A stretch of DNA of 64,000 nucleotides from Alteromonas mediterranea DE (GTDB lineage Bacteria; Pseudomonadota; Gammaproteobacteria; Enterobacterales; Alteromonadaceae). Shown here piece after piece: positions 21,141-27,189 of this stretch; the stretch's first letter is position 1, and each line of letters starts with the position of its first letter. Under the pieces are notes generated by a model, which searched no databases, had not been told where the DNA came from, and saw only the letters and a list, made by a program, of their open reading frames with translations. A program made the translations under genes and the position numbers. The DNA lies in contig NC_011138.3 of the NCBI RefSeq assembly GCF_000020585.3, forward strand, positions 1,767,193-1,831,192, given 5' to 3'.

Positions 21141-21287
21141 AAATTTCGCCATTATCAGCTATATAGGGTAGCGGTAATGTCTGTCTCTCGTGTAAACTAC
21201 CGCTCTTATTTCAGGCAAGCCTTAGCGCACGGAAAGATTCTTTCTATGCTTTGGCCATGCAGTCATCATGCAAATTGAGGAAAACAT
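21141..21287 (+). repeat. pheS-leader repeat, copy 1 (most diverged)
   Basis: Near-copy of the 147-bp region directly upstream of pheS (27040-27189). It runs from AAATTTCGCCATTATCAGC to GAGGAAAACATGG, with 8 single-base differences from the working copy by eye. The 33-codon leader ORF stays open, but a Phe codon has become Ser (NYRSYF). It leads into a decayed pheS. Confidence 0.9.
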
Positions 21288-21830
21288 GGAGCTTGACGCT
21301 ATTATCAATCAGGCACAAAGCCAGATTGACGCTGCAGAAGATGCAGCCACATTAGACCAAGTTAGGTTCGAATTCATGGGTAAGAAAGGTAAACTTACCG
21401 ACTTACTTAAAGGGCTTGGAAAGTTATCGAACGAAGAACGTTCTGCCGCAGACTAAAAGATTAATCTAGCTATACAGGTTATTTAGCAAGCTACTCCTTC
21501 AGAAAGTGTGTTTTACATATTGAAGTGCTTCGTACAAAGCTAGTCGAGAAGCAATTGGAATAACTTGCCTTCCCATTAAAGGCCAGCCCCGAAATTGATG
21601 ATGGGTTCCACAATTTTGACCTTCAGAATGTTTCAGCTGGTTCCCCTGCGCATGTCGACTACTTTGCTTTTTATTTTTACCCAGGGATTATTCACCGTAT
21701 TCAAACCGCTGATATCCAAATTCATACATAGAAGTGGAAAAGTCGCCACTACGTACTTCGCTCCATGACTGTATATCGTGACGAAAGACCATAATCGAGC
21801 CTTCAAAACTTTCATTAGATAATTTATAAC
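21288..21830 (+). pseudogene. Decayed duplicate of the pheS 5' half
   Basis: The sequence begins exactly like pheS ([27 protein letters not shown]) and follows it for 56 codons, to a TAA where pheS has GGC CAA. Recognisable blocks then continue in shuffled frames: a match to the PEIEDG-HNFD segment at about 21586-21620, the FYFNPD region at about 21660-21690, and the VYRNDY region at about 21765-21790. Alignment by eye fades near 21830, equivalent to about 27795 of intact pheS. It lacks the catalytic C-terminal part and cannot encode a synthetase. It marks an old duplication of the pheS leader plus 5' end. Confidence 0.85.
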
Positions 21831-21944
21831 CTTATCATGTATAAGGGTTTGGTAATATAAAAATGAATGTTTTAATTAGCAAATATTACTGATAAGCCTA
21901 AAAGTTTAGATCGGTCTGACGGTAGCCTATTATCTTTAGGCGCT

Positions 21945-22763
21945 TTATTTAAATTTTCTTCGTATGAACAAGTTAAACCGAAAGTGCGACAGCATAATTA
22001 GAGTTAACAATAATAATGCCCCAATAGATGGCGAACTTACCTTAATCGTTTCCACACTTGTTAGAGTGAATCTAACCGTAGAATCTACAGGATAAGTAAC
22101 CCCAGCATTTACATCATCAACCCTTTCAATAAGTCTAAGTGAGCCGCCGCCGCTTTGGGTATCTGAAGTAAGGTCGTTATCGAACCATGAAACTGGTGAT
22201 GCGAAGTCAGGCATTTCGTCGCGCAGTAAGGTATCTTCTCCAAACGCTAAAAAATCGTTTAGTAAATCATAAAAGCCGAAGCTTAGATGCAGTGTTGTGT
22301 CTATGTTTCCGTTCGAAAAAAGGGTAGTTTGTCTAGCGTAATCTTTAAGCGATATGCCATCGCCAATATAGCCATCGTCATAAGTTGGCCCGTCATACAT
22401 TTCTAATATTTCTTCGGGGTAATACTCATCGTATTCTGCTTGATAAACTCCCTCGTTGTTGAGTCGAAAGAGCATATCGCCAAATTCAACACTAGATGTT
22501 AATGCTGGGCGGTCGTTATCATGAACAGACCACCAATAATAGCCTGTTTCAAGTCTGCCTCGAATTGGCGCTGAAGTGTCTAAGGTAAAAGAACCTGTTA
22601 CCTGTTCTCCCAATAAATCAAAAGGATCGAAAAATTCCAGCGCAGAGTTTTCTATTTCTGAGACAACCCCGTTGAAGTTATAAGTTACAATTGCACTGTT
22701 TACCGAAAAGCTCGCAAAGATGAAAGCAATACTACTTAGCAGTTGACGATAGGAGATATTCAT
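21945..22763 (-). CDS. Secreted PEP-CTERM-like protein
   Basis: 272 residues. It has a signal peptide (MNISYRQLLSSIAFIFASFSVNSA). The next domain resembles the common beta-sandwich of PEP-CTERM proteins: VTYNFNGVVSEIEN, then GEQVTGSFTLDTSAP. The C-terminus is SSPSIGALLLLTLIMLSHF followed by RRK, a hydrophobic anchor with basic end. The usual PEP motif is reduced to SPS, so exosortase processing is uncertain. It is the only gene in the unit between pheS-leader copies 1 and 2. It is probably a surface or matrix protein accompanying the polysaccharide. Confidence 0.68.
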   Translation of the reverse strand: MNISYRQLLSSIAFIFASFSVNSAIVTYNFNGVVSEIENSALEFFDPFDLLGEQVTGSFTLDTSAPIRGRLETGYYWWSVHDNDRPALTSSVEFGDMLFRLNNEGVYQAEYDEYYPEEILEMYDGPTYDDGYIGDGISLKDYARQTTLFSNGNIDTTLHLSFGFYDLLNDFLAFGEDTLLRDEMPDFASPVSWFDNDLTSDTQSGGGSLRLIERVDDVNAGVTYPVDSTVRFTLTSVETIKVSSPSIGALLLLTLIMLSHFRFNLFIRRKFK

Positions 22764-22890
22764 AACGTAGCCCTAATGATTGCTAGAAATTATACTTTAG
22801 TCTAATGGTGAATGCGTGGCTAGAACTTCTTCATTTTATCGTTAGCGTTTTGAATAAAGTTGTAAGTTTTCCCCTGCGTAAGTAAAACCC

Positions 22891-23069
22891 ACAAAATTTC
22901 GCCATTATCAGCTATATAGGGTAGCGGTAATGTCTGTCACTCGTGTAAACTACCGCTTTTATGTCAGGCAAGCCTTAGCGCACAGAATAATTCTTCCTAT
23001 GCTTTGGCCATGCAGTCATCATGTAAATTGAGGAAAACATGGAGCTTGACGCTATTATCAATCAGGCAC
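22891..23069 (+). repeat. pheS-leader repeat, copy 2
   Basis: About 179 bp matching the pheS leader and the first 30 or so bases of pheS (through ATCAGGCAC), where similarity stops abruptly. By eye it differs from the working leader by two substitutions in the leader ORF region (TCTGTC for TCAGTC, TATGTC for TATTTC). It separates the PEP-CTERM-like unit from the two-GT unit. The rest of the 22764-23234 gap shows no gene. Confidence 0.9.
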
Positions 23070-23234
23070 TGAAATTAAATTATTATCTTGCATCACTGGC
23101 GTTTTCGTTGTGATAATTCTCCTGAATTAACACCAATGCACAAAATAAGGTCAGCGCCTTCTAAATTGCAAATGAGAACTTCTTGATTGTAGTTTACAAC
23201 AAGTTGCAAAATGCCAAAGGACTCACTTTTCTTT

Positions 23235-25679: not shown

Positions 25680-25813
25680 CATCCTAGTGTTTAGAACTAT
25701 TAGCTGATAACTTCACTAAATATGTTTTCTTTCGCTGTGCTTATTTGTTTGCGGCTCTTATTACATATTTTACTGTGAGTACAGTTTTCATTTACCGTGT
25801 TTATGTGATTTCC

Positions 25814-25962
25814 CACCAAAATTTCGCCATTATCAGCTATATAGGGTAGCGGTAATGTCAGTCACTCGTGTAAACTACCGCTTTTATTTCAGGCAAGCCT
25901 TAGCGCACAGAAAAATTCTTCCTATGCTTTGGCCATGCAGTCATCATGTAAATTGAGGAAAA
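25814..25962 (+). repeat. pheS-leader repeat, copy 3
   Basis: 149 bp nearly identical to the working pheS leader (one substitution by eye, AGAAAAATT for AGAATAATT). It starts at the same left boundary (CACCAAAATTTCGCC) and stops at GAGGAAAA, just before where the pheS ATG would be. It separates the two-GT unit from the methyltransferase unit. The remainder of the gap 25680-26029 holds no gene. Confidence 0.92.
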
Positions 25963-26029
25963 AATAAACGTTGCTGAATATAAGCTCACCACATATAAAT
26001 TAAAGGCATATTCTTTCCTGTAGCGTCAA

Positions 26030-26863
26030 TCATTTTACTAATACACAGGTTACAGATGGTAAAAAAAACTGTGCGATTTTACGCCCCTTATAGGAATCAA
26101 CATTTTTTAAAAGCGATTCCATTACGGAAAAGTAAAGGCGAGGCATACGCACATGAATGTTCTTTGCGCTCCAGTAAAACTTAACCTGCTCGAAGCCGAT
26201 ATCCTCTACCGATTTAACATCTTCAAATGTCCACTCTTTCAAATGAAAACATTCAGGAGAGGCAGAAAAATATTGCGATACATCGTGTGGACCACTAAAA
26301 GCATGTGGTGTTCTAAATGCATAGGCGCCACCTTTTTTCAAAATTTGGTTTACTATAGTAAAGTGATGTTCAACATCTTCATCGTGTAAGTGCTCAATAA
26401 GTTGGTCACTGAATACAAAGTCTACGCTTTCAATTTCTATTTGCGATAAATCATAGCCGTCATAAACCACGATAGAGGTGTTTTCTGGGAATTGTTCGCT
26501 TTTGTCCCTTTGGTCAGAAATATCAACGCCTATAGCTTGTTGGCTGTGTTGAGCTGCCTTTTTAAGAAGTCTTCCATCTCCAGACGCAAACTCAACAAAT
26601 ACCTCATCTTTTTTAAGAAAGCGCTTTATAAAAGCCATTCTATGGCTTACTTTTTTGCGACTTTCAGTTTCATCATTTCGTTTTGTTAAACGTGGATGGT
26701 CTGGAACTTTTGAGAACAGCTCATCATACATTTTGCTGTAGATTTCTTTACGCGACTCTCTGTTCGCTGCTTTTAGCTGCGAAGCGAGGTTTTTTTCAAC
26801 TTGGTAATGGTTTAATACTTGCTCGTATGTTCGGTTTGATGGAAGCGGTTTCCTTATCTGCAT
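26030..26863 (-). CDS. SAM-dependent methyltransferase (class I)
   Basis: 277 residues. The Rossmann SAM-binding motif I is EVFVEFASGDGRLLKKA at about residues 80-96, followed by the acidic motif II in AIGVDIS. VDFVFSDQLIEHLHDEDVEHHF is the post-motif region typical of Methyltransf_11/23-type enzymes. The N-terminal 70 residues are helical and charged. It is alone between pheS-leader copies 3 and 4. In this context it probably methylates a sugar or a glycan precursor, but small-molecule methylation cannot be excluded. Confidence 0.75.
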   Translation of the reverse strand: MQIRKPLPSNRTYEQVLNHYQVEKNLASQLKAANRESRKEIYSKMYDELFSKVPDHPRLTKRNDETESRKKVSHRMAFIKRFLKKDEVFVEFASGDGRLLKKAAQHSQQAIGVDISDQRDKSEQFPENTSIVVYDGYDLSQIEIESVDFVFSDQLIEHLHDEDVEHHFTIVNQILKKGGAYAFRTPHAFSGPHDVSQYFSASPECFHLKEWTFEDVKSVEDIGFEQVKFYWSAKNIHVRMPRLYFSVMESLLKNVDSYKGRKIAQFFLPSVTCVLVK

Positions 26864-27039
26864 TCTACTATCCCTGTATATCTAAAACGTTTTTGTTCTT
26901 TTACTTAGGAGATATTAAAGAATGTGAATAGATGTTCAAGGCATTTCTGCGGACAATAAGTTGGTTGAAGAAATTGTGTACTAAATCCTTTATATTCGTT
27001 CAAGAAACCGCTTCTCTCTCACTATTCCTATTACCTACT

Positions 27040-27189
27040 CACCAAAATTTCGCCATTATCAGCTATATAGGGTAGCGGTAATGTCAGTCACTCGTGTAAA
27101 CTACCGCTTTTATTTCAGGCAAGCCTTAGCGCACAGAATAATTCTTCCTATGCTTTGGCCATGCAGTCATCATGTAAATTGAGGAAAAC
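27040..27189 (+). promoter_or_regulatory. Working pheS leader (repeat copy 4) with possible attenuator
   Basis: Directly upstream of intact pheS and the source pattern of the three upstream copies. It contains a TATATAG -10-like box (about 27063-27069) and a hairpin AGCGGTA (27074-27080) / TACCGCT (27102-27108) followed by TTTATTT. It also contains a 33-codon leader ORF that ends in the ribosome-binding site of pheS. In enteric bacteria pheST is controlled by attenuation through the pheM leader peptide. The same logic here is inference. Confidence 0.6.
27081..27182 (+). CDS. Candidate pheM-like leader peptide (33 aa)
   Basis: The ATG at 27081 opens a 33-codon frame rich in aromatic codons early on (NYRFYFRQ: Tyr, Phe, Tyr, Phe within six codons). 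It stops at TGA 27180-27182, overlapping the TGAGGA ribosome-binding site of pheS. The frame is preserved in all three upstream leader repeats. PheM of E. coli (14 aa) is also Phe-rich and precedes pheS. This one is longer and not recognisably homologous, so its function as an attenuator peptide is inferred from position and codon content. Confidence 0.5.

Follow-up and report, generated by a model that had tools for sequence, protein, structure and literature searches.

Upstream of the core gene pheS, the genome of Alteromonas mediterranea DE (assembly GCF_000020585.3, contig NC_011138.3) carries an array in which displaced copies of the pheS leader alternate with units of surface polysaccharide-related genes. 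We analysed this array in a window of 64,000 bp, covering positions 1,767,193-1,831,192 of the single 4.48-Mb contig; coordinates below are those of the window. Our data suggest, with a probability of roughly 60%, that the array grew by repeated homology-anchored insertion-duplication at leader-pheS, with the newest unit placed beside pheS and the old leader left behind each time as a scar.

A 43.6-kb polysaccharide island occupies the interval between rplT and pheS (43,579 bp), and the array forms its right end. The array is anchored by pheS (27190..28170, + strand), whose working leader, c4, lies at 27040..27189 (+), with conservation beginning at about 27045. Further to the left follow three displaced leaders: c3 (25814..25965, +), which ends immediately before the ATG of pheS, c2 (22892..23069, +), which includes 31 bp of pheS, and c1 (21141..21821, +), which continues into about 620 bp of decayed pheS. 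The copies c1 to c4 all have the same direction as pheS. A search of the own genome with the leader returned them with E values from 4.5e-74 to 9.8e-62, hence they are not chance matches. An earlier sequence-only reading of this DNA had recognized the four direct copies, and their positions hold to within about a base (the second copy starts at 22892 instead of 22891). It had also placed two of the right ends properly, about 30 bp into pheS and just before the ATG, while the 540 bp given for c1 has to be extended to about 620 bp. What it missed is a fifth, decayed copy, the fossil leader c5 (18762..18915, +; nhmmer 31 bits), together with a truncated unit to the left of it. We found c5 with a profile of the leader and early pheS that was built from 29 genomes (E 1.4e-8), whereas the top match in a reversed-sequence control had an E value of 2.3.

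Across the 145-bp leader, c3 and c2 each differ from c4 at 2 positions and c1 differs at 8, so that the gradient of 1, 2 and 8 counted by eye was not reproduced. In the pheS part of c1, residues 1-76 and 114-208 of PheS can be recognized, up to about 21821; this right end is uncertain, as the nucleotide alignment of a stretch ending at 21800 extends to 21796. Copy c1 is a mosaic. Before position 21452 (about 167 bp into pheS), differences from the working copy amount to 12 of 311 aligned bases (3.9%), and after it to 89 of 345 (25.8%); the alignment contains 90 gap columns overall, and the divergence step was reached in none of 1000 permutations. Because the divergence jumps so abruptly, recombination seems to have affected at least one scar since its formation. 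The copies had been proposed to be dated by their divergence, but with c1 being a mosaic such dating is unsafe and was dropped. Behind its leader, c1 retains an open PheS N-terminal frame of 56 codons (21286-21456).

The left edge of the copies is nearly fixed, as had been pointed out before, and it lies close to the left edge of leader conservation in six aligned genomes that have no island. Since leader conservation at empty sites starts about there, the fixed edge needs no recombination site. The right ends, on the other hand, vary. In addition to those given above, a scar in another genome of the genus, G022, ends about 50 bp into pheS. We therefore found no base-precise recombination sites at both ends of the units, and the combination of varying right ends with a left edge set by conservation argues against site-specific recombination. 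An integrase encoded elsewhere, targeting the pheS leader and bringing a replacement leader with each element, was one of two mechanisms put forward in the sequence-only reading. The units are gene-sized and, with their near-fixed left edge, look cassette-like, and the genome has 17 matches to PF00589. The nearest of these is about 420 kb away from the island, matches to PF00239 are farther than that, and a search of the own genome, which also answers the earlier call for a tyrosine recombinase search upstream of the window, found neither family within 400 kb. Thus, no tyrosine integrase accompanies the array in the way known from integrons or integrase-built cassette arrays. Comparison of the array (21000-27400) with plasmid and phage records gave no match, and a 35-base leader pattern had none among viral contigs. 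We consider the integrase mechanism to be extremely improbable. Likewise, neither a tRNA site within the window (the rplT end of the island lies outside) nor an integrase near the island was found, as would be expected at the boundary of an additive genomic island. A gene of the ComEC family is present, but the same search was positive in most controls as well (10 of 14 genomes, E. coli among them), which makes it a weak indicator.

The cargo was compared with the genus (59 genomes, 58 besides the own), in which relatives of units 1, 2 and 4 were sought by whole-genome searches. Unit 4, next to pheS, is a methyltransferase (26030..26863, - strand). Three of the 58 other genomes match it at E 1e-40, namely G010, G001 and G035, and in all three the relative is adjacent to pheS (78% at the amino acid level). 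Unit 3 consists of two divergent GT4 glycosyltransferases. The one at 24534..25679 (+) has a sole, weak match in the 58 genomes (41%, in G003), and in the protein database it falls into a cluster of 70 members at 99% identity, with the next relatives at 82 and 81%. The other one, at 23235..24380 (-), belongs to a family that is pheS-adjacent in G054 (52% at the amino acid level); slightly closer relatives are located one to several genes off pheS in G018, G001 and G055. Unit 2 encodes a PEP-CTERM-like protein (21945..22763, -), the relative of which adjoins pheS in G037 (85-88% at the amino acid level). The name, adopted from the earlier reading, rests on the appearance of the C-terminus, and neither Pfam nor NCBIfam assigned a family. 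Unit 1 is an acyltransferase-3/SGNH protein (19150..21069, -), pheS-adjacent in G029 (70-71% at the amino acid level). To the left of c5 lies the truncated unit 0 (16799..17443, -), the SGNH part of an acyltransferase. Its best match is the end of the pheS-adjacent acyltransferase of G021 (66.5% at the amino acid level, in a comparison with pheS-proximal acyltransferases only).

For four of the five units (0, 1, 2 and 4), the best relative found thus directly adjoins a single pheS leader in another species, in the same orientation. The upstream stretches read in the genomes of these relatives (3.4 kb for G010 and 2.2 kb for G035) contain no displaced leader. In other words, single-unit states, with a conserved anchor and cargo beside it, exist in G021, G029, G037, G001, G010 and G035, and in the stretches read their homology to the recipient lies on the leader-pheS side only, as expected of a donor in homology-facilitated illegitimate recombination. 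Moreover, G001, one of the genomes with the methyltransferase unit, matches the c4 leader and bases 1-150 of pheS without a single difference. For the PEP-CTERM-like unit, colinearity with G037 (88.8%) extends from the gene interior through the intergenic stretch to the leader. This bears on the possibility that the pheS leader was first duplicated in tandem and that cargo was inserted between the copies later, by transposition or otherwise. Transposase genes are indeed located nearby (13292-15527 and 17566-18546). However, cargo, flank and leader together follow the arrangement seen next to pheS in G037, the scars do not share a right end, and homologous cargo stands beside single leaders elsewhere, so that we regard a tandem duplication predating the cargo as very improbable.

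To survey the slot, we recorded the first open frame to the left of pheS with 90 codons or more in the 59 genomes. The site is empty in 20 of them, with rplT as the nearest frame (gap 203-367 bp). In 13 genomes the nearest frame belongs to family C9 and points towards pheS, in 24 it points away from pheS, and in one (G024) it is another gene pointing towards pheS; for G049 there was too little sequence. Gain and loss among related genomes, which the sequence-only reading had asked for, are therefore plain, as 20 of the 59 sites are empty and the slot genes differ. Instead of an island, G039 (L079), G051 (L052) and G052 (L087) carry a single gene between rplT and pheS. The first two share a gene family, for which Pfam gave no match in G039, and the gene of G052 matches PhyH.

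Displaced leaders are rare. A whole-genome leader search matched 37 of the 59 genomes, and separate extra copies occur only here and in G022; the remaining double entries come from a single leader matched in pieces or from a short match by chance. We also searched the stretch upstream of pheS (about 12-18 kb for most genomes, 67 kb here, and 1.2-7 kb for G049, G035, G010 and G053), using the own leader and pheS as well as the profile as queries. Displaced leaders were detected in 2 of the 59 stretches, four here and one in G022, where a PEP-CTERM-like gene lies to the right of the scar. One further profile match, in G024, is that genome's own leader. G024 (L070) has a PEP-CTERM-like gene at a distance of 3.4 kb from pheS, separated from it by three other genes and with no detectable scar, and none was seen between the genes it has in common with G022. 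In a sample of the family, 153 of 157 genomes have a PheS match, and among the matches listed only G000, G135 and G148 have more than one. The extra PheS of G135 is an intact distant paralogue, and that of G148 is near full length, in a genome rated 85% complete and 5% contaminated. The genus search further revealed a second full PheS on another contig of G035. PheS loci from named genomes (80, nearly all of other genera, with close Alteromonas absent) were also considered and not used.

The start of pheS shows a trough of divergence. Among nine close species whose site is not empty (with 1.2 kb seen of G049), bases 51-145 of the leader differ by 1.29% and bases 1-150 of pheS by 0.67%, followed by 6.73% in pheS 150-400 and 4.37% in pheS 400-978. 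Between these nine and three species with an empty site, the first 50 bases of the leader differ by 23.9%, the rest of the leader by 1.1% and pheS 1-150 by 0.91%. In ten distant species there is no such dip (19.8% versus 19.5%). Judged from these alignments, the low divergence at the island border fits a shared recombination arm. The region 27095-27340 and its equivalent in 12 close genomes, which is the leader from base 51 together with pheS 1-150, is nearly invariant.

On this basis, insertion-duplication at leader-pheS would proceed as follows. The right end of the polysaccharide island would serve as a variable slot, at which incoming DNA ending in leader-pheS arrives from a related strain. 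The donor leader-pheS would pair with the resident copy by homology, probably through RecA, while the cargo end would join non-homologously within the resident leader or early pheS. The old leader and between 0 and about 620 bp of pheS would then remain as a scar to the left of the added cargo, with the new unit adjoining an intact leader-pheS. The pheS gene is essential, so only products with an intact leader-pheS would survive. At least four repetitions of this process would yield the array, with the oldest units farthest from pheS. The decay agrees with this order, since the fossil c5 and the truncated gene are outermost and c1 has diverged further than c2 and c3. That units accreted serially at one site, the newest beside pheS, was the central proposal of the sequence-only reading, and it is supported by the single-leader relatives of four units and by the outermost leader and gene being the most decayed.

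Several observations weigh against this reading. Stacked slot genes without scars are present in G001, G018, G055 and G024, hence scars are not the rule, and most exchanges either leave none or their scars vanish. The GT4 pair of unit 3 has no close relative or donor in the genus. The best relative of the c1 cargo is in G029, but the leader of c1 is unlike the one there. Divergence does not prove the age order, since c2 and c3 are equally far from c4 and c1 is a mosaic, and the species of the array is represented by one strain. Mid-distance species partly share the low diversity at the start of pheS, to which constraint may contribute. Short microhomology at the illegitimate join is a feature of homology-facilitated illegitimate recombination, and at the joins the relatives have diverged too far for it to be read. 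Finally, the joins are tidy. They lie past the 3' end of the first cargo gene by about 124 bp at c1, 166 bp at c2 and 65 bp at c3, by 79-235 bp at c5, the end of which is uncertain, and by about 60 bp in G022. A position of all five joins (four here and one in G022) 60-235 bp past the cargo 3' end is not explained by our model and counts against random ends, as these would be expected to cut neighbour genes often. Trimming afterwards, or the transfer of ready-made leader-flanked units, could be the source of the tidy joins.

The latter leads to an exchange with two homologous arms, where leader-flanked units are moved by double crossover or as a leader-leader circle and the array grew mostly from ready-made units. 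Such an exchange would account for every join just past the cargo 3' end, and the step near 21452 suggests that the c1 scar recombined after its formation. According to a passage in PMC5361080, ordinary homologous recombination also exceeds homology-facilitated illegitimate recombination in frequency by several orders of magnitude. Yet leader-flanked units occur in just 2 of the 59 genomes of the genus, the two share no unit with its scar, and the first creation of each scar would still require a non-homologous join. Repeated homologous exchange is the better of the two mechanisms that the sequence-only reading had offered; two-armed exchange of ready-made units as the main source of the array we find unlikely, although worth serious consideration. 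A further-reaching variant is speculative and rather doubtful. Here, the pheS leader would act as an integrase-free attachment site, and leader-flanked circles excised by RecA would re-enter the pheS leader of any related strain by a single crossover, forming a genus-wide pool of surface-sugar cassettes.

Displaced leaders might also have been retained for a function, for example to terminate transcription or to start it antisense to the cargo, so that the duplications were selected. This would suit the nearly intact state of c2 and c3 and the antisense orientation of the cargo gene immediately to the right of c1, c2 and c3. But c5 and the scar in G022 are decaying, and a consensus scan revealed neither promoter nor terminator inside the leader copies, where a promoter is only presumed. 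We judge selection for such a function to be quite improbable. A search of the window with Rfam gave no match at the gathering score. By eye, the leader contains an open frame with Tyr and Phe codons (27081-27185), which might encode a leader peptide and is not kept in all species.

The proposed insertion-duplication comes close to a process described for Vibrio cholerae. In parts of their paper, Kirchberger et al. (2017, PMC5361080) describe serial displacement in the effector-immunity arrays of the type VI secretion system (T6SS), citing Rhs displacement alongside, and propose homology-facilitated illegitimate recombination, with no evidence of an integrase. As far as that account goes, both systems have a conserved anchor, successive additions with the newest beside the anchor, displaced older parts, and intermediates in other strains. 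The T6SS arrays, in contrast, leave immunity genes and effector 3' ends, while the scar here is a duplicate of the anchor, the leader of an essential gene of translation, and the cargo consists of polysaccharide-related genes instead of effector-immunity modules. In the T6SS case, to judge from the same sections, the anchor stays single and the resident part is replaced, whereas here the whole leader is duplicated at each event, which makes the array a variant. What sets the array apart from serial displacement, the nearest known process as presented there, is that every step duplicates the anchor as a scar. The same paper, in one place, compares integron arrays with T6SS arrays.

Integron gene-cassette arrays consist of gene-sized units that are added at one end, with older units being displaced. 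Unlike integrons, the array has no nearby integrase and its right ends are imprecise; no search was made for attC sites.

Replacement flexible genomic islands are exchanged by homologous recombination, with Alteromonas among the cases treated in the portion of Lopez-Perez et al. (2014, PMC4033161) relevant here. The locus resembles them in that its surface polysaccharide genes vary in content while their place between core genes is fixed. The recombination signal reported for their core boundary might correspond to the trough and subsequent rise in divergence at the start of pheS, with the possible contribution of constraint noted above. The boundaries of such islands are stated there to lack clear hallmarks of illegitimate recombination. 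The leader scars, in contrast, look like marks of illegitimate recombination, and units are added rather than swapped. A possible way to a duplicated leader is offered by the transformation-induced merodiploids of Streptococcus pneumoniae, in which, as outlined in part of PMC3784515, a donor fragment with a repeat integrates between sister chromatids and leaves a duplication. The merodiploids outlined there are large tandem duplications at insertion sequence (IS) repeats without a cargo array. Our literature search, in titles and the openings of abstracts, found no description of leader-scar arrays and no paper combining Alteromonas, pheS and rplT.

Products encoded in the part of the interval that lies inside the window (the rplT end is outside) include a protein with an O-antigen ligase/Wzy domain, glycosyltransferases, a sulfotransferase and a flippase-type protein. 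A GT2 glycosyltransferase (15598..16344, -) is the last gene common to several genomes to the left of the variable slot. Between unit 0 and c5 lies a DDE transposase with DUF772 (17566..18546, -), which we take to be IS5-like. An IS21-type pair, with an IstB family match and a Mu-type transposase C-domain, interrupts at 13231-15617 a stretch that is continuous in G012, G021, G022 and G037.

Overall, surface-sugar genes seem to have been added successively beside an essential gene, each addition leaving a duplicate of its control region. How marine polysaccharide islands gain genes without an integrase is a standing question, and the array seems to record such growth. As each addition seems to leave a readable scar with direction and order, the process could be traced event by event and sought at other island borders. 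If units do recirculate, the leader of an essential gene would be a docking site for the exchange of surface genes.

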